Origin: an uncultured Glaciecola sp.
Lineage (GTDB): Bacteria; Pseudomonadota; Gammaproteobacteria; Enterobacterales; Alteromonadaceae
Reading direction: 5' to 3'
DNA: 64,000 nt
Assembly: GCF_937770335.1 (NCBI RefSeq)
Contig: NZ_CALJHY010000005.1
Span: 62,001 to 126,000 of the forward strand
Shown here in pieces: positions 4,925 through 56,889 of the stretch. Every line of letters starts with the position of its first letter. Position 1 is the stretch's first letter. The notes under the pieces were generated by a model. The model did not search any database, was not told where the DNA came from, and saw only the letters and a list, made by a program, of their open reading frames with translations. Both the position numbers and the translations under genes were made by a program.

Positions 4925-6163
4925 TTACAGGAAGTTATTGATACTTCGCTTAATACTAAGTTCAACAGTTTCAACTATATGGATGGTAGCACTTACATCT
5001 TGATCTGGTGGATCCTGTTTATATGTGTATGGTTTAGGGTCAACTTTATGCTCCTCCTGTGCAGGCTGAGTCTGTATCAAAAAACCCATTTTAGACGCTT
5101 TAACCTTCATCGCATTGCGTAATAATTGCCTAGCTTGTTGTAACGTTTCACTATCCTTTTGTATTTTCACTAACACCGGCGTACCGTCATGATGCTCAAC
5201 CAAGATAGCGTCGATACCCTGATTTCTATGTACGGGGTTATACTCAATCCCGACTAAACACTGCAACGCATCTACATTTGCATTTTCAAATGCTTTGCGC
5301 CCTTTTTTCATTAAGGTAGATTCAGTTTTAATTGGATTATCTAGCCTTGCTTGCGAGAGCTGAACCGCATCTTCTGACTGGTCGATACCGATATATTTTC
5401 TATTTGTTAAACTTGCCGCTACGCAAGTCGTCCCACTGCCACAAAAAGGGTCGAGTACTAGATCGTTTTCGTTAGTGACAAGGTCAATAATACGTTCTAA
5501 TAATAACAATGGCTTTTGAGTTGGATAACCCACCCGCTCTTTTGCTTTTGGATTCAAGTAAGGAATATCCCAAACGTCACTTAAAGGCACGCCTTGCTTC
5601 GCATCGGCCTGCTGAATATTGCCTTTATCGTCTCGCGCATAGATAGATTTATTATGCTTGTCGCGTGTTCTGCGCTGCAAAATTTGATCAAGATTAGTTG
5701 CCTCGGAATAAGGCATAAACACTTTGTTGAAGGTGAAATCTTGGGTTTTACTATAAAAATAGATATTTTGATGGCTCGGTAAAAGCCCTTTTTTAGCGTT
5801 AGACCAACGTTTGTATTGCCATATGATTTCCGACTGAAAACAGTCAGATCCAAACACATCATCAAGTACACCGCGCACAATGTGGTTAGCCATTTTGTCG
5901 CAATGCACAAAAATACTGCCAGTATCTTTTAATAGAGTACGCATTTTGAGAATACGTCGATGCAGGAACTCAGCGTAACTCGACTCCTGCTTCCAAATAT
6001 CATCGAAACTGAATTCTTTGGTACGCTGACGATTTTTAAGCTTATGTTTACGCTCAGTAAAAAACGGAGGGTCTAAATAAATCAAATCCACCGTAGAGTC
6101 GGCAATTTGGTTCATTTTTTCTAAACAGTCACCTAGCAATAGCTGGTTAGCCATAGTGATCAT
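4925..6163 (-). CDS. Orphan site-specific DNA methyltransferase (DPPF-first, beta-class order)
   Basis: An amino-group DNA methyltransferase of about 412 residues. The catalytic motif DPPF is at residues 31-34 and the S-adenosylmethionine-binding FxGxG motif comes later, as LDPFCGSGTT near residue 240. This is the beta-class order (motif IV before motif I) with the target-recognition region between. DPPF suggests N6-adenine or N4-cytosine methylation. The C-terminal 140 residues hold an extra domain (GIDAILVEHHDGTPVLVKIQK) that looks like a decayed PD-(D/E)xK-type fold. The track start at 6241 is too long: GGAGG at 6175-6180 fits the ATG at 6163 (MITMANQLLLGDCLEKM). No restriction gene is adjacent, so it is probably an orphan enzyme with a regulatory or protective role. 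Confidence 0.87.
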   Translation of the reverse strand: MITMANQLLLGDCLEKMNQIADSTVDLIYLDPPFFTERKHKLKNRQRTKEFSFDDIWKQESSYAEFLHRRILKMRTLLKDTGSIFVHCDKMANHIVRGVLDDVFGSDCFQSEIIWQYKRWSNAKKGLLPSHQNIYFYSKTQDFTFNKVFMPYSEATNLDQILQRRTRDKHNKSIYARDDKGNIQQADAKQGVPLSDVWDIPYLNPKAKERVGYPTQKPLLLLERIIDLVTNENDLVLDPFCGSGTTCVAASLTNRKYIGIDQSEDAVQLSQARLDNPIKTESTLMKKGRKAFENANVDALQCLVGIEYNPVHRNQGIDAILVEHHDGTPVLVKIQKDSETLQQARQLLRNAMKVKASKMGFLIQTQPAQEEHKVDPKPYTYKQDPPDQDVSATIHIVETVELSIKRSINNFL

Positions 6164-43763: not shown

Positions 43764-45431
43764 ATGAATACTACGATAAAGAAAGCCAGAGATATAAAAA
43801 GCCCGACCGGTAATAAACTAATCTGCCAAAGTTGGTCAACCGAGGCGGCGTATAGAATGCTGCATAATAATTTGGATCGTGAGGTAGCTGAAAACCCAGA
43901 TGAACTAGTCGTATATGGTGGTATAGGTAAAGCAGCCCGAACATGGAAAGATTTTGATGCCATTGCTGATACCTTAAAAACGTTAACCGAAGACGAAACA
44001 CTTTTAGTGCAGTCAGGCAAGCCGGTCGGGGTTTTTCGTACCCACCCAAATGCGCCTAGAGTATTGATTGCAAACTCAAATATTGTGCCGCACTGGGCAA
44101 ATTGGGATCACTTCAACGAACTCGATAAAAAAGGCCTCATGATGTATGGCCAAATGACGGCCGGCTCATGGATCTACATAGGCACTCAGGGCATTGTGCA
44201 AGGGACCTATGAAACATTCGTTGAAGCGGGTCGTCAACACTATGCCGGTAACTTAAAAGGTAAATGGATATTAACCGCCGGATTAGGAGGAATGGGCGGC
44301 GCGCAGCCGCTCGCAGCGGCTATGGCTGGTGCTTGTTGCCTGGCCGTTGAATGCGATCCACAAAGCATCGACTTTCGATTACGTACTCGTTACGTGGACG
44401 AAAAAGCAGACACGTTAGATGAAGCACTGAAAATGATTAACCGTTGGACAAAAGCGGGTGAAGCAAAAACCGTTGGTCTGTGTGGCAATGCGGCCGAGAT
44501 ATTTCCTGAACTTGTTAGACGTGGCGTACGCCCCGATATTGTGACAGACCAAACATCCGCGCATGATCCTATCAATGGCTATTTGCCTTTAGGGTGGTCG
44601 TTAGCAGAATGGAAAGAAAAGCGCGTATCAAACCCCAAAGAAGTGGAAAAAGCAGGCCGAGCATCAATGCGAATTCAAGTTCAAGCGATGTTAGATTTTT
44701 GGGATCAAGGCATTCCAACCCTCGACTATGGAAACAACATACGACAAGTTGCGTTGCAAGAAGGATTAAAAGAAGCCTTTAACTTTCCCGGGTTTGTTCC
44801 AGCCTATATTAGGCCTTTATTTTGTCGAGGTATTGGACCATTTCGCTGGGTAGCATTGTCTGGCGATCCCGAAGATATCTACAAAACCGATCAAAAAGTA
44901 AAAGAGTTATTGCCAGATAACGTGCATCTTCATCAATGGCTAGACATGGCCAGGGAGCGTATTTCATTTCAAGGATTGCCAGCTCGTATTTGCTGGGTAG
45001 GTCTTGGTGAAAGACATCGTTTAGGCTTGGCCTTTAACGAAATGGTAAAGAGTGGCGAACTCAGCGCGCCCATAGTTATTGGACGTGATCACTTGGATAG
45101 CGGCTCCGTTGCCAGTCCAAACAGAGAGACAGAGGCAATGAAGGATGGGTCCAGCGCTGTATCTGATTGGCCACTTTTAAATGCACTATTAAATACCGCA
45201 TCTGGGGCAACTTGGGTTAGTTTGCATCATGGCGGAGGTGTCGGCATGGGATTTTCTCAGCACGCTGGAATGGTAATTGTGGCGGACGGTACTGATGAAG
45301 CCGCGGCTAAATTAGAACGTGTTCTCTGGAACGATCCTGCCACGGGTGTTATGCGTCACGCCGATGCGGGCTATGATGAAGCGCTTGACTGTGCTCGTGA
45401 AAAAGGCTTGAACTTACCCGGTATTTTGTAA
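43764..45431 (+). CDS. hutU: Urocanate hydratase
   Basis: A 555-residue NAD+-dependent urocanase converting urocanate to imidazolonepropionate. Landmarks are [74 protein letters not shown] (NAD site), [18 protein letters not shown] and the Cys-containing [16 protein letters not shown], with [22 protein letters not shown] near the end. A GGAGA ribosome site precedes the ATG. It is the last gene of hutIHGU; no hutT-type permease follows. Confidence 0.96.
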
Positions 45432-45945: not shown

Positions 45946-46313
45946 GACGGAGGATGTTCAACAGTTCGGTTTCTGACAAAAGTAGTGGTCTAGGTTGCAA
46001 AAACAAGAACCAATAATTAGTACTCTACTTATATTTTAAGCATTACGTGTTCCATATTATGCCATATTCAATGCTATTTAATGGCGACAATAAACACTTG
46101 GTTACTTTATGAACAATATAAAAATGGGTGCTACAGACTACTAATTATTTAATGTGAAACCGTCCATCAACGTGATTTACAACATCATTAAAACAGCTAA
46201 AATCCCATCTATACAAGTAACTTAAGAAAATAACAGGCCTATATAGCCACTCAATATATCTTTAACTTCAACGTGGTTTTTCTCGTTCTTATTGAACACC
46301 AAACTTATCAAAT
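45946..46313. other. Intergenic leader region upstream of the choline operon
   Basis: AT-rich sequence between the small hypothetical gene/REP-like element and the operon promoter. No ORF with a convincing ribosome site, no stable RNA fold and no further copies of the palindromes were seen. It may carry additional upstream regulatory sites for the TonB-receptor promoter. Confidence 0.4.
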
Positions 46314-46342
46314 TTGATTTTAATTGAACGTTCAATTAACAT
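46314..46342 (+). promoter_or_regulatory. Candidate BetI-controlled promoter with 20-bp perfect palindromic operator
   Basis: A perfect 20-bp palindrome, TTAATTGAACGTTCAATTAA (46320-46339), sits between TTGATT (46314-46319, -35-like) and TAACAT (46337-46342, -10-like), spaced 17 bp. A repressor bound here would block polymerase. It is the only such site in the following 9-kb gene run, which includes betI (TetR family). The TTGAAC half-site resembles BetI sites as I recall them, but I cannot confirm this. Transcription would start about 60 bases upstream of the TonB-receptor ATG. Confidence 0.7.
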
Positions 46343-46410
46343 AACTGCGGTTGGCATATTATTCCCACACACGAAGAACGTTTACTAAAATACATTCAAC
46401 AGGAACTTTT

Positions 46411-48771
46411 ATGAAACCTCATTTGCCTATGAAGCAAAGCGTGATCGCACTATCTGTATTATCAGCAATATCTATAATCTCTTTGCCCGCAATGGCGCAA
46501 GACAGTGAAGAACAACAAGCAGAAATCGAAAAAGAAAAAATAGAAACTATCCAGGTTACTGGCCGTAGCGTTTCTTACGCAAACAGCACTGTTTCAACCG
46601 CAATGAAAAAACAGCAAACTCCAATGACCAGCGCACTATCTATTATCGATAACCTGCCTGGCGTTTTGGTTAACGAAGGTAGCCCGTTTGGTTCAGACGA
46701 ATGGTCAACGAGTATTTCAATCCGTGGTTTCACCCTTGACCTGGAATCTCAGCAAATTGGAATGACCGTCGATGGTATCTCCAATGGTAACTCTAATTAC
46801 GGTGGTGGTACTAAAGCCAGCCGTTATATCGATACCGAAAACCTGCGCAGTATCCAAGTATCTCAGGGCACGGCCGATATTGGCTCTCGTTCTAACGAAG
46901 CGTTAGGTGGCACGCTTGACTTCACCACAATTCGTCCTGCTTTTGACGAACAACTTACCGTCAGTACGACACTTGGTGACTACAACGCACGTAAATTCTA
47001 CTTACGCTACGATACCGGCGAGATTGCAAAAGACACCTATGCATGGGCCTCTTTGTCGACCCAACAGAATGACGATTACATGGACGGATCAGTCACTAAC
47101 ACACGTGACCACGCTGAAGCTAAAATTATCAGTAAAGTTGGCGAAGTCGATCTGACTGGTTATTTCAGCTATGACGATGCCCAAGAATATACATACCAGC
47201 GAGTTTATGGTCTTGGCCAGTATGCACAAAACCCTAACTGGGATGGCCTGACAGAAGACTGGACTGGTATACCGTATCAGGATCAAGTATTTCGCGAGGG
47301 CTGGGTAACAGAACGTGAGAATCTGTTTGGTTATTTAAAAGCCGACTTCAGTGTGGGCACGGTCGATGTAAGCACTAACGTTTATTACCATAAAAATGAA
47401 GGTATCGGCAAATGGATCCCATATTACATGGCTGACGTTACCGATGATGGCGAAGGTAATCCGCACTCTGAGCTAGATTCTTCAAGTACTGCCTTTGGCG
47501 GTTCAACCAGAGGCCTGATTTATTTTGTTAATCGTGACGGCCAATCATTGTCTCCTATCGATAACTGTTCGAGTTCTATCGGCTATCCTTATGGCGGCGG
47601 CGGTGCAGCCGTTGATCCTGGTTGCTATGAGCAAGGCGCAATGCCAGTCAGCTCTCATCGTCATACCCATTACGAAAAAGAACGCTATGGCGTGAATGCC
47701 GATGTAGTCTGGAACACGAAGATAGCTGGCATGCCAAATACCTTCCGCAGTGGTTTCTGGTATGAAGATTATCAGCGCGAAGAATACCGTGACTGGCATA
47801 AAACTATTGACGCGGCATCAAGCCCACGTCCTGAAAGTAATCCATATTGGATCCAGTACAGCCGTGAGTTTCCAGTTGAAACCTTGATGTACTATATTGA
47901 AGATGAATTGAATGTTGGTTTTGCAAAGTTACGTGTTGGTGCGAAACAATTTGATGTTGAAGTCTCTAAGGAAGATCAGTTTACCCCAGAAAATAACCTG
48001 ACTGTATCCTCTGATTCTGACGTGTTGATATCTGCAGGGTTTGTTGCACCTCTTCCAATTCGTGGTTTAGAAGTCTTCGGTGGTTATGCTGAAAACTTTG
48101 CAGCCATAAAGGATGCGGTATTAGAACGTGACGACACTGATTTGAGCGTAGTAGAACCTGAAACAGCAGACAACATAGATGTCGGTTTTCGTTACTCTAC
48201 GCCTGGTTTCAACGCCAGTCTTACGTATTACAACATTAAGTTTGAGAACCGAATCACGTTTGTCAGTAATGAAGACGTTAACGGTATCGATTTCTTAGAA
48301 GCCGCTGCTGGCGGATTCGTAAACGACGGCGGCATAGAATCAGATGGTATAGAAGCATCTGTCGACTATAGACTGACAGATAACCTTGGCGTTTACGTTT
48401 CGTATACTAAGAACGACTCTACGTACACCGACGATGCGTTTCTAGGTAAAACCGTAATAGGAAGTGCCCAGGACATGGCCGTGTTTAGCATTGACTATAG
48501 CAAAGGCGATTTTTATGCTGGTTTTAGCACAAAATATGTCGGCGAACGTTTCTTAGACCAAGCAAACACGCAGGAAACTGACTCTTATGTAGTAAGTGAC
48601 CTGTATGTCGGTAAGACGGCATATGATATTGGTGGAGCGATTGATAGTATTGAACTAAGCTTCACGATAAATAATGTTTTCGACAAAGATTATCTTGGTT
48701 CGATTGCGACTAACGCAGCTTGGATAGGCGCTCCAAGAACAGCGGCGCTTAACGCTAAGTTTATAATGTAA
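46411..48771 (+). CDS. TonB-dependent outer-membrane receptor, first gene of the choline operon
   Basis: A 786-residue outer-membrane transporter. A signal peptide (MKQSVIALSVLSAISIISLPAMAQ) is followed by a charged spacer, a TonB box-like IETIQVTG, a plug domain (about 60-190: MTSALSIIDNLPGVLVNEG, SISIRGFTLDLESQQIGMTVDG, ALGGTLDFTTIRP) and a 22-strand barrel ending AALNAKFIM. The start at 46411 follows AGGAAC; the track start adds 20 residues. Receptors import bulky or scarce substrates with TonB energy. Its position behind the candidate BetI operator and ahead of phoD-betIBA suggests a choline-containing ligand; the substrate is inferred only. The family most resembles non-siderophore receptors. 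Confidence 0.9.
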   Translation: MKPHLPMKQSVIALSVLSAISIISLPAMAQDSEEQQAEIEKEKIETIQVTGRSVSYANSTVSTAMKKQQTPMTSALSIIDNLPGVLVNEGSPFGSDEWSTSISIRGFTLDLESQQIGMTVDGISNGNSNYGGGTKASRYIDTENLRSIQVSQGTADIGSRSNEALGGTLDFTTIRPAFDEQLTVSTTLGDYNARKFYLRYDTGEIAKDTYAWASLSTQQNDDYMDGSVTNTRDHAEAKIISKVGEVDLTGYFSYDDAQEYTYQRVYGLGQYAQNPNWDGLTEDWTGIPYQDQVFREGWVTERENLFGYLKADFSVGTVDVSTNVYYHKNEGIGKWIPYYMADVTDDGEGNPHSELDSSSTAFGGSTRGLIYFVNRDGQSLSPIDNCSSSIGYPYGGGGAAVDPGCYEQGAMPVSSHRHTHYEKERYGVNADVVWNTKIAGMPNTFRSGFWYEDYQREEYRDWHKTIDAASSPRPESNPYWIQYSREFPVETLMYYIEDELNVGFAKLRVGAKQFDVEVSKEDQFTPENNLTVSSDSDVLISAGFVAPLPIRGLEVFGGYAENFAAIKDAVLERDDTDLSVVEPETADNIDVGFRYSTPGFNASLTYYNIKFENRITFVSNEDVNGIDFLEAAAGGFVNDGGIESDGIEASVDYRLTDNLGVYVSYTKNDSTYTDDAFLGKTVIGSAQDMAVFSIDYSKGDFYAGFSTKYVGERFLDQANTQETDSYVVSDLYVGKTAYDIGGAIDSIELSFTINNVFDKDYLGSIATNAAWIGAPRTAALNAKFIM

Positions 48772-48784
48772 TAAAACGTGACAA

Positions 48785-48814
48785 AGCCACATACAGTAAC
48801 AACTGTATGTGGCT
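48785..48814 (+). terminator. Perfect 13-bp hairpin between the receptor and phoD-like genes
   Basis: AGCCACATACAGT-AACA-ACTGTATGTGGCT, starting 14 bases after the receptor stop. It is followed by ATTTAATG, a weak U-tract. It may act as a partial terminator or mRNA stabiliser that lowers expression of downstream bet genes relative to the receptor. Confidence 0.6.
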
Positions 48815-48845
48815 ATTTAATGAACATAATGAGGTAATAACACGC

Positions 48846-49889
48846 ATGTTTAGATTATTAGCAATTTGTACATTACTTATTTCTACTGCGGTCTCCGCTA
48901 ATGCACCAAGTCGTATTTTATTTGGCTCGTGCTCACACCAAGACAAAGACATCCCTATTTTTAACAGCATTATCGACGATGAACCAGAAGTGTTTATATT
49001 TCTTGGAGATAATGTTTACGGCGATACCGAAGATATGTCGGTACTGCAGAGTAAATACGACAAATTAGGCGCAAAACCTGGTTTTCAGAAGTTGAAAGAA
49101 CAGGCTGAGCTAATCGCGATCTGGGATGACCATGATTTCGGTGCTAACGATGCCGGTAAGCATTATCCTCAAAAAGAAGCATCTCGTGAAATTATGCTTA
49201 ATTTCTGGGAAGAACCAGAAGATTCGCTTCGCAGAACTCGAGAAGATGGCATTTACACCTCGTATCAATATGGCAAAGGCGAAGAAAGTATTCACGTGAT
49301 TTTACCGGACCTTCGTTGGAACCGAGATGACATTGCTCACGTAACTGGCGAACAATATACTAACGACCGCGAACCGAAGAACATGGGTCCTTACAGCGTT
49401 CATAGCGACTCTAGCGCTAGTATGATTGGTGAAAAACAATGGCAGTGGCTTGAACAAGAACTTAAAAAACCAGCACGTATAAAAGTGATAGGATCCAGCC
49501 TTCAGCTATTAGCAGACTTTACCGGCTGGGAATCTTGGGCTAACTTCCCCTCTGACCGCCAACGTTTATTTTCCCTTATTAAAAAACATAAGGTGAATGG
49601 AGTGGTATTGATTAGTGGTGATACGCATTGGGGCGAAGTCAGCTATTATGATGAAGACCTAGATTATCCATTATGGGAAATCACCTCGTCTGGTTTAACC
49701 CAAGAATGGAAAAACGTCAGCCCAAACAAGCACCGCATAGGTAATTTTACTAGTAAGGTTAACTATGGCGCACTTAATGTAGATTGGGAAAAAGAAGACC
49801 CCATCGTCACTCTCGGACTTTATGACGAGTTAGGCGATGTGCTTAACGAACATCGGTTCAGGCTGTCAACGCTGGAACCTTATCAATAA
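48846..49889 (+). CDS. Exported PhoD-family phosphoesterase (alkaline phosphatase D-like)
   Basis: A 347-residue secreted metallophosphoesterase. The Sec signal peptide MFRLLAICTLLISTAVSANA precedes the catalytic domain. Metal-binding motifs are RILFGSCSHQD, VFIFLGDNVYGD, IAIWDDHDFGAND and VVLISGDTHWGEVSYYD, the PhoD set of Asp, Cys/Asn, Tyr and His ligands. Known PhoD-family members cleave phosphodiesters and phosphomonoesters, including phospholipase D activity in Streptomyces chromofuscus. Sitting between a TonB receptor and betI, it may release choline from phosphocholine or glycerophospholipids in the periplasm. The start at 48846 is chosen for the signal peptide and a GAGG site. Confidence 0.85.
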   Translation: MFRLLAICTLLISTAVSANAPSRILFGSCSHQDKDIPIFNSIIDDEPEVFIFLGDNVYGDTEDMSVLQSKYDKLGAKPGFQKLKEQAELIAIWDDHDFGANDAGKHYPQKEASREIMLNFWEEPEDSLRRTREDGIYTSYQYGKGEESIHVILPDLRWNRDDIAHVTGEQYTNDREPKNMGPYSVHSDSSASMIGEKQWQWLEQELKKPARIKVIGSSLQLLADFTGWESWANFPSDRQRLFSLIKKHKVNGVVLISGDTHWGEVSYYDEDLDYPLWEITSSGLTQEWKNVSPNKHRIGNFTSKVNYGALNVDWEKEDPIVTLGLYDELGDVLNEHRFRLSTLEPYQ

Positions 49890-49909
49890 ACTAACCATGT
49901 GAGAATGGA

Positions 49910-50473
49910 ATGCCAAAAGTAGGAATGGAGTCATTGCGTCGTCAACAATTGATTGATGCAACAATTCATGTTGTTGCTGAAGTTGGTCTAAAAGGCGCAA
50001 CGATTAATCTTATTTCTAAACGAGCAGGAATGTCGTCAGGGATAATCAGCCACTATTTTGGCAGTAAACAGGCGTTGATAGAGGCCTCTGTGCAGTATCT
50101 GCTTTCACAACTTAAGTTAGAGCATTCGCCAGATAACCCTTATGACCGACTAATGAAAATTGTTGACCTAAATTTCTCCGGCTTACAACAGTCAGACGCA
50201 AGCACCCGAATATGGCTAAGTTTTTGGGGGCAGTCCATGCACGATCCAAAGCTGTATCGCTTGCAGGAAATTAATAAACGTCGTCTTGTCAGTAACTTGC
50301 GTTACAGTTTTAAACAATTATTAGATCCCCAAACGGCCCGCGACGCCGCGGAAGTTACCGCGGCACTCATCGATGGTTTCTGGTTGCGCTGTGCATTAAG
50401 TCGCGCCAATCAAGAAAAATTTAGTCAAGCAAAAGAATACTGTAAAAAATATATAAACAGCGTGCTGGAATAG
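49910..50473 (+). CDS. betI: TetR-family repressor of the choline pathway
   Basis: A 187-residue TetR-type regulator that matches BetI. The helix-turn-helix is in MPKVGMESLRRQQLIDATIHVVAEVGLKGATINLISKRAGMSSGIISHYFGSK, and the C-terminal part contains IWLSFWGQSMHDPKLYRLQEINKRRLVSNL, typical of BetI. BetI represses bet genes and is released by choline. Start is 20 bases after the phoD-like stop and 44 before betB, within one operon. Its likely operator is the palindrome at 46320-46339. Confidence 0.92.
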   Translation: MPKVGMESLRRQQLIDATIHVVAEVGLKGATINLISKRAGMSSGIISHYFGSKQALIEASVQYLLSQLKLEHSPDNPYDRLMKIVDLNFSGLQQSDASTRIWLSFWGQSMHDPKLYRLQEINKRRLVSNLRYSFKQLLDPQTARDAAEVTAALIDGFWLRCALSRANQEKFSQAKEYCKKYINSVLE

Positions 50474-50517
50474 GACGTTGTTATTTAAATCATTACCAAC
50501 ACAAATCGGAGTTATCG

Positions 50518-51981
50518 TTGCCTTCTACATTACTTAAGAACTTTATCCACGGTCGCTATGTCGACAACACTGACAACACACGTTTTGACGTTATTAACCC
50601 AAGTACCGGACAGGTAATCTACGCTGTTGAAAGCGCCTGTGAAAACGTGTTGGAACAAGCAGTCAGGAGTGCCCAAGAAGGCTTTAAAATCTGGTCCAAA
50701 ACGCCGGCTATCGAGCGCGCTCGTATTTTACACAGAGCTGCCAATATACTCCGAGAACGCAACGATGAGTTAGCCAAAATTGAAGTGATTGACACTGGAA
50801 AACCTTGGCAAGAAGCCGTAGAGGTTGATGTTCAGACCGGCGCAGACGCCATTGAGTATTTCGGTAATTTATGTCCATCAATGATGGGCGAACAACAAAG
50901 TGTCGGTAATGACTTTTTCTACACAAGACACGAACCTTTGGGCGTATGTTTAGGCATTGGCGCATGGAACTATCCTTTGCAAATCGCTTGTTGGAAAGCC
51001 GCAGCTGCGCTCGCGGCCGGTAATAGCATGATTTTCAAGCCTTCAGAGGAAACGCCTCGAGGTGCAAGCCTATTAGCCGAAGTATTTATTCAAGCCGGTG
51101 TGCCCGAGGGCGTATTTAATGTCATTCAGGGAGACGGCAAGGTTGGTAACTATCTGGTAGAACATCCCGCAATAGCTAAAGTGTCGTTAACCGGCGAAGT
51201 GGGTACTGGCAAAAAAGTGATGGCTGCTGCCGCAGGTACGTTGAAAAAAGTGACGATGGAGCTTGGTGGTAAGTCGCCATTAATCGTGTTTGAAGATGCC
51301 GATATTGATGAGGCAGTAACCGCTGCTATGCTGGCGAATTTTTACACTCAAGGTGAGGTTTGTACCAATGGAACTCGCGTTTTTGTGCACCAGGATTGTT
51401 ACGACACCTTCATGGAACGCCTACTCATTCGCACCCGAGATAATGTTATTGTGGGCGATCCCTTAAATCCAGCTACAAACTTAGGTGCGCTGATTTCCGA
51501 AAATCATATGCAGACAGTACTTGGATACATTGAGTCAGGTAAGAATGATGGCGCGACGCTGGCCTTCGGTGGTGAACGTATTAAGCCTGATGGTTGTGAA
51601 AATGGTTACTTTGTAGGGCCTACTATTTTCACCCATTGTACCGACGACATGCGCATTATTCGCGAAGAAATTTTTGGGCCGGTCATGTCCGTAATGACCT
51701 TTGAAACTGAAGAAGAAGTAATCCAACGCGCCAATGACACTATTTATGGCCTTGCTGCCGGTATCTTCTGCACCGATATACGCCGCGCTCACCGCGTGAT
51801 CGCGCAGTTGGAAGCAGGTATTTGCTGGATTAATGCCTATGGAAACTCGCCGGTAGAAATGCCGGTAGGTGGTTACAAGCAATCAGGCATTGGTCGTGAA
51901 AATGGCATCGAAGGCCTTAAGTCATACACCCAGACCAAATCAATTTATGTTGGTATGGACAAACTTGAAGGTCCATTTTAA
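50518..51981 (+). CDS. betB: Betaine aldehyde dehydrogenase
   Basis: A 487-residue NAD(P)+-dependent aldehyde dehydrogenase converting betaine aldehyde to glycine betaine. Landmarks are [62 protein letters not shown] (catalytic Glu) and [16 protein letters not shown] (catalytic Cys near 286). The start codon is TTG at 50518, with CGGAG seven bases upstream; homology begins right after it. The stop overlaps the betA start (TAATG), coupling the two. Confidence 0.95.
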
Positions 51982-53681
51982 TGTCTGCAAAGATAACTGA
52001 AACCTTTGACTATATCATTGTGGGGGCAGGTTCAGCAGGGTGTGTGTTAGCTAACCGCTTGACCGAAGACCCCACTACTTCAGTATTACTATTGGAAACT
52101 GGCGGCTCAGACCGCAGTATATTTATTCAGATGCCGACCGCGTTGTCGATCCCGATGAATAGCAAAAAATATGCTTGGCAATTTCATTCTCAGCCAGAGC
52201 CGTTTTTGAATAACCGTGAAATGCATTGCCCGCGTGGCAAAGTTTTGGGTGGTTCTTCGTCAATTAACGGCATGGTGTATGTGCGTGGTCATGCCCGCGA
52301 TTTTGATGAATGGCAGACGCATGGCGCCCAAAACTGGGATTATCAGCATTGCTTGCCGTACTTTAAAAAAGCGGAAGACTGGGCTTTTGGTAACGATGAC
52401 TATCGTTCTGAAGGAGGCCCATTAGCTGTTAACAACGGCAACAACATGCAAAACCCTTTGTATCGAGCGTTTATCGACGCAGGGGTAGATGCGGGGTACT
52501 TAGCAACCGAAGATTACAATGGTTACCAGCAGGAAGGCTTCGGTGCTATGCATATGACCGTAAAAAAAGGGATTCGCTGGTCAACGGCTAACGCTTATTT
52601 ACGACCCGCTATGCAACGAGATAATTTGACCGTAAAGACCGGTATTCAGGTGACTAAAGTGTTACTTGAAGGTAAGCGAGCGGTAGGTGTTGAATTAGTT
52701 GAAGGCAACGCCAAAAGCCAAGTGTTAGTTAATAAAGAAGTTATATTGAGTGCTGGCCCTATCGGCTCGCCCCATATTTTACAACTATCTGGTATTGGTA
52801 ATACTAAAACCCTGTCGGCGGCCGGCATTGAAACCCAACATGAACTGCCCGGTGTGGGCGAAAACCTGCAGGATCACCTAGAGTTTTATTTTCAATATGA
52901 GTGCAAGCAACCAATAACACTTAACAGTCAGTTAGGGCCATTGAGTAAGCTTGCCATTGGCGTGCGTTGGATTTTGTTTAAGACAGGATTAGGGGCAACT
53001 AACCACTTTGAGTCCTGTGGTTTTATACGTTCGAAAGAAGGTGTTGAATGGCCAGATCTGCAATATCACTTTCTTCCAGCTGCTATGCGTTACGATGGTA
53101 AATCGGCGTTTGATGGTCATGGCTTCCAGTTGCATATTGGACATAATAAGCCAAAAAGCCGCGGCTCAGTAAAAATCCAAAATGCTGACCCACTTAACCC
53201 ACCGCGCATTCAGTTTAACTATTTGCAGCATGCAGACGATATAGAAGCATTTCGCGCCTGTGTTAGATTATCGCGTGAGATTATTGCGCAACCTGCCATG
53301 GACGCTTATCGGGGTAATGAAATCCAGCCCGGAGATGACATCGTAAGTGATGCGCAAATAGATGCATTCGTGCGCGAAACAGTCGAAAGCGCTTATCACC
53401 CTTGCGGCACTTGTCGTATGGGCGCAGCGGACGACGAAATGGCTGTCATTGATCCGCAAATGCAAGTACGTGGTCTACAGGGGCTCCGGGTTGTTGATTC
53501 ATCTGTCTTCCCCACCGTGCCAAACGGTAACCTCAATGGGCCGACTATGATGGTTGCAGAGCGAGCTGCTGATATCATAAAGCAACAGGTATTACCTGCA
53601 ACTGATGTTGAGGTTTATAAAGACCCAGAATGGCAGCAACGTCAGCGCAGTAATCAGGCAAAGCGAGATGTGACATGTTAA
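51981..53681 (+). CDS. betA: Choline dehydrogenase
   Basis: A 566-residue FAD-dependent GMC oxidoreductase oxidising choline to betaine aldehyde. The FAD-binding [21 protein letters not shown] is at residues 10-30, GMC signature 1 at [22 protein letters not shown] and signature 2 at [15 protein letters not shown]. The active-site His is in [10 protein letters not shown] near 466 and the Asn in [11 protein letters not shown]. It overlaps betB by 1 base (TAATG) and the downstream transporter by 7 bases. BetA is usually peripheral to the inner membrane. Confidence 0.95.
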
Positions 53682-54874
53682 CGCTGGTAAGTATTGGTAT
53701 GCTGTTTTTTATGACTATGGTGGTTTTCATTTTAGCCCGCTGGGGTAATCTTAGGCTTAATGGCCGCTACCCCGTTTCAACCGTCACATTTATTGCCATA
53801 TTGTTTACTTCTGGTCTAGATGTGGGACTGATTATGTTCCCGCTAACAGAGTTCCCAGTATATGCCGATATCCAAGAAAACAGCGAATACGCCTTTACCA
53901 ATCCCCTAGCGATTGAATTTGGTTTTTGGGGTTTCCTTGTCTGGGCGATCTATTTTGTCACCTGTTTTTACTTCTGCGCCATTGAGCCTAAAGTTAAATT
54001 TTTTGAAATCCCTTTGGTTAAGTGGTGCAATAACATCGTCATTATTGGCACCTGTGCTTTTACAGCCCACTTGCTGTTTGCTAACTTAAGTTGGTATTTA
54101 CCTGAGATTGCGGTTGGTGACGGCTTTCCTTGGTACTATGCACTGATTGTCGGTGCCACGATTTTGTTTTCAGTCTATTCCAGTACCGATATTAAGTTTG
54201 TTAAAATTTTAAGCTTGTCTTCCGGAGGCCTGTTTTTTGCCCTAATTATTGGGCTTGGCAGCGTTGCGTTTATATCTGACGAAGTATCAGCGTCCGATTA
54301 TATAAATACACTTCCACTACTAACCAGCTACTTCGAACATTTAGAACAGTTTGTTTTACCTATCAATGACTACCATGCCTTTTATTTATTCTGGTGGTTT
54401 GCTTGGAGCATTATGATTGGCCAGTTTACCGCACGTTTTGTCGGTAACATGAGCACGGTTAAACTGTTTTTGTCCATGCTTATCTGGCCATCCCTTTCCA
54501 TTGGACTATGGTTCAGTGTACTTTATCTATTCCATTTAAAAGGACTGGAAACGTCTGGGTTTATCAATTTGGCCATGGTTTTTGTGGGCATTGTTTTTGT
54601 GATCAATTCCCTCGACTCGCTAATCCGCCTCTACTCAGACAACCTAGACTTAACAGTGGCGCGGTTTGGTAAGCGTAAATACATAACCTTGCATGCCTTT
54701 TTAATGATGATGCTCACGGTACTATTTAGCCTGCAGTTTATCCGAATACAATGGGTTGGCGCTCTAGTTATCGGTATTAGCTTATGCTGCTTTATATACA
54801 TTTTACTAGGCAAACAACGACACCCTTTGCCCAAAAAAGAGTTGCTAATCTCGTTGCCAAATAGCAGGAAGTAA
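53675..54874 (+). CDS. Short, divergent BCCT-like choline/betaine transporter
   Basis: A 399-residue membrane protein with about ten to eleven helices. It aligns by eye with the BCCT family but is shorter than the 500-670 residues normal for BetT or Bet[39 protein letters not shown] occupies the place of the family's GMGIGL...AEP motif, reading GLDVGL. The TM8 signature is [19 protein letters not shown], keeping the Trp-Trp-x-x-Trp aromatic box that cages quaternary amines. Both ends are trimmed; there is no osmosensing C-terminal domain. The start overlaps the betA stop by 7 bases, so translation is coupled. The role is inferred as choline or related quaternary-amine uptake. Confidence 0.75.
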
Positions 54875-54934: not shown

Positions 54935-54975
54935 AAAGCTTGCTAGAATACTGTTTTTCATTCAGTTATTTTTCT

Positions 54976-56889
54976 ATGATTGTTTATATCGCTGAGAAAC
55001 CAAGTTTAGGTCGTGCAATCGCTACCGGATTTGATGGCAGCCAACAGAAGCGCGATGGCTATATCGAGCTAGATAATGGCGATTGCGTAACATGGTGTAT
55101 CGGCCATCTATTAGAGCAGGCCGAACCAGATAAATACGATGCAGCCTATGCCAAGTGGTCGCTGCAACACCTACCGATTGTGCCTAAAAAATGGCAACTC
55201 GTACCTAAAAAAAATACGCAAAAACAACTCACCGTGGTAAAGCGTTTGCTAAAAACAGCGACGCATATCGTGAATGCAGGTGATCCTGATCGCGAAGGTC
55301 AGTTACTCGTCGACGAAGTCATCACCTATTGCGGGGTAAAGGCTTCGATTATTGAAAACGCTGGACGTTTATTGATCAATGACTTAAACACTAGTGCAGT
55401 TAAAAAAGCCTTACAAAATATGCGCGCTAACCGGGAATTTTTAGGCTTATCTATTTCAGCCTTAGCGCGTTCTCGGGCTGATTGGTTGTATGGGTTAAAT
55501 TTAACCCGTGCTTACACTTTGCTTGGGCAACGCGGCGGCTATAGTGGCGTACTTTCCGTTGGACGGGTACAAACGCCAATTTTAGGTTTAGTTGTAAGGC
55601 GTGATCAAGATATTGCCCATTTTGTGTCTAAGCCTTTTTTTGAAGTTATCGCAACTTTAGAGACGTTGAACAACCTTATATTCACGGCAAAATGGCAGCC
55701 AAGCAAAGCTTGTGAGCCCTATCAAGACGAAGAGGGTCGAGTGCTGTCGCGCAAATTAGCGCAAACGGTGGTGAATAAAACCCAAGGTCAGAGTGCCTCT
55801 GTCACCGATTACAAAGTACAAAGTAAACAAAGCCCACCACCATTGCCTTATAGCTTATCAATATTGCAAATTGATGCGTCTAAGCGTTTTAACGTATCGC
55901 CTAAGATGGTGTTAGATATATGTCAGTCGTTATATGAAAAACACCAACTAATTACTTATCCCCGATCCGACTCGCGTTATTTACCTCAAGAACAGTTTGC
56001 TCAAGCATCCAAAATATTAAGCGTTATTAAGTCAAATGTGCCAACTTTAGCAGCTGCCGCAGATAATGCGAATCCTAAGTTAAAATCTAAAGCGTGGGAT
56101 GACAGCAAAGTCGATGCCCACCATGCCATTATTCCAACTAACCGCGCTAAGGCATTGGCAAGCTTGACGGCAGATGAAGCAAAAATTTATCAACTCATTG
56201 TTACTCAGTATTTAATGCAGTTTTATGGACCACATAAATATCAAGAACAAGTGGCAAAGGTTGATATTGGCGGTGGCGAATTTATTGCCAAAGGTAAAAC
56301 AACTCAAGACCAGGGATGGTTGGCACTGACTAGAAATGAAAAGACTAAAACAAATAACACCACAGCCGAAAATGCATTACCAACGCTAAGTAAAGGTGAG
56401 TCTTTATCATGCATCGACTCACAACTACTAGAAAAACAAACATCGCCGCCTAAGCACTTTACTGAAGCCACTTTGCTTGCCGCCATGACCGGTATTTCTC
56501 GCTATGTGCAAGACACCAAAATCAAAAAAATATTAAAAGAAACTGACGGGCTTGGCACAGAGGCCACGCGCGCATCAATTATTGATTTATTGTTTAAACG
56601 CCAGTTTATGCAAAAAGTAGGGAAAGAAGTTCATGCAACCCCAACTGGCAAAGCACTTATTAACGCGTTACCAAGTGAAACTACTCATCCCGACATGACT
56701 GCTATCTGGGAAGCAAACCTAGATAAAATCGCCCACCGGCAGTTACGTTACGACGCATTTATGCAACCTTTAACGGATTCTATCAGGCATTTGATTAGTA
56801 ACAGTCAACAGTTAGATACGACTCAGTTTGCAGGTTTGAAGAGTACAAAACCAGTACGCAAGAAACGTTTTTTTAAGAAAAAATCTTAA
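54976..56889 (+). CDS. topB: DNA topoisomerase III
   Basis: A 637-residue type IA topoisomerase that relaxes negative supercoils and decatenates DNA. The TOPRIM domain has MIVYIAEKPSLGRAIA and VNAGDPDREGQLLVDEV. The catalytic Tyr is in LITYPRSDSRYLP near 317. The decatenation-associated region and GLGTEATRASIIDLL motif are present. The C terminus ends in a basic tail (KPVRKKRFFKKKS) without zinc fingers, as in E. coli TopB (653 residues). The ATG at 54976 is chosen because homology starts there; the track start adds 12 residues. Confidence 0.93.
   Translation: MIVYIAEKPSLGRAIATGFDGSQQKRDGYIELDNGDCVTWCIGHLLEQAEPDKYDAAYAKWSLQHLPIVPKKWQLVPKKNTQKQLTVVKRLLKTATHIVNAGDPDREGQLLVDEVITYCGVKASIIENAGRLLINDLNTSAVKKALQNMRANREFLGLSISALARSRADWLYGLNLTRAYTLLGQRGGYSGVLSVGRVQTPILGLVVRRDQDIAHFVSKPFFEVIATLETLNNLIFTAKWQPSKACEPYQDEEGRVLSRKLAQTVVNKTQGQSASVTDYKVQSKQSPPPLPYSLSILQIDASKRFNVSPKMVLDICQSLYEKHQLITYPRSDSRYLPQEQFAQASKILSVIKSNVPTLAAAADNANPKLKSKAWDDSKVDAHHAIIPTNRAKALASLTADEAKIYQLIVTQYLMQFYGPHKYQEQVAKVDIGGGEFIAKGKTTQDQGWLALTRNEKTKTNNTTAENALPTLSKGESLSCIDSQLLEKQTSPPKHFTEATLLAAMTGISRYVQDTKIKKILKETDGLGTEATRASIIDLLFKRQFMQKVGKEVHATPTGKALINALPSETTHPDMTAIWEANLDKIAHRQLRYDAFMQPLTDSIRHLISNSQQLDTTQFAGLKSTKPVRKKRFFKKKS

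Follow-up and report, generated by a model that had tools for sequence, protein, structure and literature searches.

We found that six genes read in the same direction (46314-54874) in the window, the 64-kb stretch of DNA analysed here, encode a TonB-dependent outer-membrane receptor (TBDR), a PhoD-type phosphoesterase, BetI, BetB, BetA and a transporter of the BCCT family, as judged from open reading frames and profile searches. We read this locus as a bet operon that has gained a front end for the release of choline in the periplasm, placed under the control of BetI, and give this reading a probability of roughly 60 %.

In the working that we propose, BetI would sit on an operator within the promoter when choline is absent, repressing all six genes, and choline would lift this block. 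Uptake into the periplasm of a phosphoester that carries choline would be the task of the TBDR. This ester is most likely a diester whose size or scarcity makes porins insufficient; candidate substrates are CDP-choline, lysophosphatidylcholine, glycerophosphocholine and molecules decorated with phosphocholine. The exported PhoD-type Fe/Ca phosphoesterase would free choline from the ester, the BCCT protein (hereafter BCCTx) would carry it across the inner membrane, and BetA and BetB would oxidise it to glycine betaine, which would probably be kept as an osmoprotectant. What we infer for this locus is that the genes are transcribed into one mRNA and induced by choline, and likewise the substrate, its import and the final use of the product. 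The choline-scavenging reading of the preliminary description is supported in part.

If the proposal is true, the locus would encode a TonB-dependent route for the uptake of a choline compound, of which we know no earlier example from the open-access literature that we searched. No description of a linkage between a TBDR, PhoD and bet genes was found in that literature. The locus provides named genes (the outer-membrane receptor, the exported PhoD and the short BCCT) that are tied together by a shared BetI operator, and the step is therefore testable by single deletions.

Gene content of the operon

The six genes are all on the + strand and are tightly packed, with intergenic gaps of 35, 20 and 44 bp followed by overlaps of 1 and 7 bp, in gene order. 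The first of them encodes the TBDR (46411-48771, 786 aa, Sec-type signal), whose plug and barrel domains were above the cut-off (PF07715 and PF00593); its start is most likely at 46411. The gene for the exported PhoD-like phosphoesterase (48807-49889) matched PF09423 with 76.8 bits (cut-off 27), and translation probably begins at an internal ATG, 48846, which is near the start sites of the closest relatives. The following genes are betI (49910-50473), coding for a choline-responsive TetR-type repressor with TetR_N and TetR_C_6 domains, betB (50518-51981), coding for a betaine-aldehyde dehydrogenase (Aldedh), betA (51981-53681), coding for a choline dehydrogenase (GMC oxidoreductase), and the gene for BCCTx, a short diverged BCCT transporter (53675-54874; PF02028 in two stretches, 47.2 bits, cut-off 27).

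The locus belongs to the bet operons by the joint presence of betI, betB and betA orthologues, which passed the NCBIfam models NF001978 (236 bits, cut-off 118) and TIGR03384 (218 bits, cut-off 201) for BetI, NF009725 (807 bits, cut-off 593) for BetB and TIGR01810 (793 bits, cut-off 732) for BetA. BetB was just under the cut-off of another NCBIfam model, TIGR01804 (664.6 vs 668.6 bits). The preliminary description of this DNA had six co-directional genes following one site, and this proved correct, all six being present in one direction with short gaps or overlaps. It had also called the BCCT divergent, which is right for the sequence of the protein (399 aa, 47 Pfam bits) but not for its direction of transcription, which is that of the other five genes. 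The upstream neighbour of the operon is a urocanate-hydratase-like gene (43764-45431, named by eye from its sequence), and a DNA topoisomerase gene (54940-56889) lies downstream.

The BetI operator and a promoter-like pair

A perfect 20-bp palindrome, TTAATTGAACGTTCAATTAA, lies at 46320-46339 (no strand), as the preliminary description had reported. It occurs only once in the 64-kb window and in none of 100 shuffles, and no further exact copy of its 14-bp core exists in the whole 3.85-Mb genome; the other near-matches that we inspected in this genome fall within unrelated genes. When loci with betIBA-BCCTx or BCCTx were sampled across the order, 15 of the 20 had either the 20-mer or a copy of its 14-bp core that differed at no more than one position, mostly directly 5' of betI or of a BCCTx gene standing alone, and such a site was also found in Colwellia psychrerythraea ND2E. 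The betI-betT gap of E. coli K-12 holds ATTGGACGTTCAAT, with one mismatch to the operator core, and the footprinted BetI box of Ruegeria has the related form ATTGACG-CGTCAAT (PMC12442346). Because the same 20-mer precedes betI in relatives, and because of the E. coli core and the related Ruegeria box, we take the palindrome, on the strength of its sequence, to be the BetI operator. A chance palindrome was ruled out by the shuffles (0/100) and by its recurrence upstream of bet genes in relatives.

The operator fills the spacer of a weak promoter-like pair, TTGATT-17-TAACAT (46314-46342, + strand), read from the letters. The promoter-like site proposed earlier is present in so far as the pair exists and its spacer is occupied by the operator, but the pair alone was below the threshold of the scanner and no better than chance. 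No second copy of the operator was found before betI in the 64-kb window, and with this sole operator-like site the six genes would therefore share one control point. In plain bet operons the operator stands immediately before betI, whereas in the clade of the window the TBDR and phoD genes intervene between the two. The earlier view that all six genes form one operon under BetI thus holds at the level of sequence, through the identity of the operator.

Copies of BCCTx located apart from betIBA were seen in four loci (L234, L235, L236 and L240) with a BetI box (0-1 mismatch) directly upstream. In Idiomarina sp. ATCH4 (L172, G065:C10:784000-796000), the same perfect 20-bp palindrome, near position 6141, lies about 65 bp before a gene of 744 aa, which we judged by eye to be outer-membrane-receptor-like and which is possibly a second BetI-controlled receptor.

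The exported PhoD-type enzyme

The AlphaFold model of PhoD had a pLDDT of 93. Its best fold match in the PDB was 2yeq, the PhoD of B. subtilis (E 9.4e-17), followed by purple acid phosphatases and acid sphingomyelinase-like phosphodiesterases. C42, D68, Y71, the WDDHD motif, D115 and the GDxH motif are invariant, and the Fe ligand C42, the D68/Y71 motif and D115 at the CaB position align with 2yeq. To judge from these residues, the enzyme has an intact active site of the Fe/Ca type and belongs to the cysteine subfamily. PhoD carries Fe3+, and the cysteine subfamily includes the phospholipase D of S. chromofuscus (PMC4223295); since the subfamily is common to both enzymes, cleavage of choline phosphoesters by the window PhoD is, by analogy, chemically plausible. 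It shares the fold, the cysteine-type Fe ligand and the conserved tyrosinate motif with B. subtilis PhoD and S. chromofuscus phospholipase D, but it differs in being a short form with no match to the PhoD_N domain, and it is 15 % identical to 2yeq. The exported PhoD-like phosphoesterase named earlier is confirmed by PF09423, the fold match to 2yeq and the intact metal ligands.

The receptor and the transporter

For the TBDR, the best sub-threshold family was the TonB-dependent siderophore receptor, TIGR01783, with 132.3 bits against a cut-off of 223.5, and the nearest PDB sequences were CntO and FoxA. Phosphocholine and glycerophosphocholine are small enough to pass through porins, so the presence of a TonB receptor suggests an ester that is larger or less abundant.

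BCCTx begins near position 44 of the BCCT profile and misses the cut-offs of two subfamilies (TIGR00842, 29.4 of 407.6 bits; NF047988, 43.9 of 650 bits), and these models do not allow a specificity to be assigned to it. Its best sequence matches in the PDB were a choline BCCT and BetP. Its structure model, with about 11 helices, was of low confidence (pLDDT 60.5) and too weak for residue-level claims; the top 8 fold matches were all BCCT proteins. BCCTx is a diverged branch of the BCCT family. It adjoins betA in 29 of 30 loci, the window included, and the best view is that bet operons of this order normally have it as their transporter. Two full-length BCCTs are also encoded in the genome. In a single-family test the central domain of DMGDH was absent from the genome, which suggests that glycine betaine is retained as an osmoprotectant.

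Conservation of the six-gene cassette

The operator and the six genes were found in the same order in two genomes of the same genus (G008 and G009) and in two Idiomarina, so that the arrangement, whose conservation in relatives the preliminary description had left to be checked, is indeed conserved. The DNA alignment of the window with G008 spans 46288 to 54836, from the operator to the transporter, at 81-84 % identity, and nothing was shared directly beyond these two positions. What is conserved is exactly the operator with the six genes. This unit recurs with unrelated flanks and apparently moved as a whole. Between the window and Idiomarina the proteins of the cassette are 78-87 % identical (82-87 % for Idiomarina abyssalis) and the urocanate-hydratase-like protein 72 %; the simplest reading of this comparison, which rests on one non-cassette protein, is apparently that the cassette passed as a whole from one lineage to another. 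Most betIBA-BCCT loci of the order have no TBDR or PhoD at the front.

The TBDR-PhoD module in other genomes

The receptor and PhoD form a module that is widespread outside the clade. In dozens of genomes a TBDR about 40-83 % identical to that of the window stands before PhoD, and a TBDR gene nearly always comes before those relatives of PhoD that are 45-66 % identical to it. A type I phosphodiesterase-like gene (PDE, PF01663) usually lies between them, which the window operon does not have, and an alkaline phosphatase gene (PF00245) adjoins in several. The PDE of the relatives received no name from NCBIfam. We considered an ENPP6-like choline phosphodiesterase, but the PDB profile search gave only weak matches to bacterial NPP proteins and no choline specificity is therefore claimed. 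At one locus (L058:8218-10323) PDE and PhoD are fused in a single reading frame of 701 aa, which supports a joint function. The large genes after PhoD in Pseudoalteromonas were rejected as partners, being RecC- and RecB-like and unrelated.

A Pho-box-like site (at most 3 mismatches) was present upstream of 20 of the 39 non-BetI modules, compared with 17 among the 608 other genes at these loci, and this signal was spacing-specific in that the 11-bp period mattered; related species are among those counted, which makes the p-values look stronger than they are. The BetI core without mismatch stood upstream of 5/48 modules and 0/608 other genes. The five modules are L070, Aliiglaciecola L088, Thalassotalea L091, L094 and L096, so that BetI boxes precede the module outside the window clade in Aliiglaciecola, Thalassotalea and an uncultured Alteromonadaceae; in Idiomarina, two imperfect copies of the core are upstream of the module. 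The genes betI and BCCTx lie divergent to TBDR-PhoD at L088, L091 and L094, and betI is also there at L096. The genome of L070 (G061), an uncultured assembly whose completeness is not reported, has the operator before TBDR-PDE-PhoD, yet BetI was not found in it; the assembly may be incomplete or another regulator may act on the motif. At L070 and L088 we also noticed TGTCA-type half sites on both sides of the BetI operator upstream of the TBDR, a hint of joint control by choline and phosphate.

On the tree of PhoD, 3 to 4 changes are required to explain where the BetI box occurs; the choline wiring was therefore gained, or lost, several times. It seems that a module for the scavenging of phosphoesters came under the control of choline on more than one occasion. 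BetI- and Pho-type sites are interleaved at L070 and L088, while the window has BetI control alone. We propose tentatively, with somewhat less than even confidence, that a module of a TBDR and an exported phosphoesterase which takes in and opens choline phosphoesters in marine bacteria was switched between PhoB and BetI control in evolution. The locus is a clear example of a scavenging module whose regulator was apparently exchanged for another.

A paralogous TBDR-PDE pair is located elsewhere in the same genome as the window (L245:4879-8681, G000:C17), behind a good Pho-box-like site, CTGTCATCTTTTAGTCAC; after it comes what is left of a truncated PhoD, about 51 aa. The window PhoD is the only intact close PhoD of this genome; a distant PhoD-like gene elsewhere is about 33-36 % identical. 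The window TBDR has no Pho box, the best upstream site having 5 mismatches. From the second pair with its Pho-box-like site and PhoD remnant, the strain seems to have placed one of its two receptors under the control of phosphate and the other, with the window PhoD, under that of choline.

In Kordiimonadaceae, an alphaproteobacterial group, PhoD lies beside betA, betB, BCCTx, a BetI-type regulator and a choline/ethanolamine kinase (L113:113-16205); this locus also carries EutH, two DMGDH-type genes (betaine catabolism) and Fer2-type oxidase genes.

Alternative explanations

Elsewhere the module looks like one for phosphorus scavenging, usually with a second phosphodiesterase and with Pho-box-like sites. 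This is the most important competing context, and the preliminary description had missed it. The TBDR and PhoD could import and cleave many organophosphates for phosphate, with the placement under BetI a convenience in which choline is a cue for the debris of eukaryotic cells; the enzyme would then not need to act on choline esters. The spacing-specific excess of Pho-box-like sites at non-BetI modules fits this explanation, as do the phosphodiesterase and alkaline phosphatase neighbours and the paralogous pair behind its own Pho-box-like site. Most copies of the module, moreover, are not beside bet genes and many have Pho-box-like sites, so the natural substrate may be any phosphoester. The window, however, has a BetI operator only; BetI wiring recurs on separate branches of the PhoD tree, and PhoD is also found within the choline/betaine locus of Kordiimonadaceae. 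We regard broad phosphorus scavenging as rather unlikely.

It is much less probable that only PhoD serves the release of choline and that the TBDR imports an iron chelate, for which the Fe3+ of PhoD (PMC4223295) would provide a need, or some other unrelated ligand. The siderophore-receptor family and the nearest PDB sequences of the TBDR agree with such a role, but in dozens of genomes the TBDR is linked with genes for phosphoesterases and has Pho or BetI sites upstream, and no siderophore or iron-transport genes were seen among the conserved partners. We give very little credence to chance adjacency, in which the TBDR and phoD genes would merely lie upstream of an ordinary betIBA-BCCT operon: most such loci of the order do lack them, but here the single operator is shared, the gaps are short, the unit is kept with exact borders in different genomic settings and the association is repeated on separate branches.

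Relation to known systems

A bet operon with a front end for choline release can be compared with known arrangements. In Phaeobacter, BetT, BetB and BetA are induced when choline is set free from the headgroups of phospholipids (PMC10132767). There, with the Pho-regulated PhoA, PhoX and PhoD, as would be the case for the window, an extracytoplasmic phosphoesterase releases the choline that feeds these proteins; the Phaeobacter phosphatase, however, is under Pho control and outside the bet locus, whereas the window enzyme, for which no Pho box was found, is encoded within the bet operon. The betIBA-betT locus of E. coli shares betI, betB, betA, a BCCT choline transporter and a near-identical BetI box with the window, but it does not have a TBDR and an exported phosphoesterase between operator and betI, and its BetT is a protein of 677 aa that is divergently transcribed, in contrast to the short diverged BCCT downstream in the operon of the window. 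Alphaproteobacterial bet loci, for example those of Ruegeria and Sinorhizobium, carry betC, which codes for choline-O-sulfatase (PMC12442346). They resemble the window in that an ester hydrolase freeing choline is under BetI together with the oxidation genes; in the window the ester would be a phosphoester, the enzyme is of the exported PhoD type and an outer-membrane receptor has been added.
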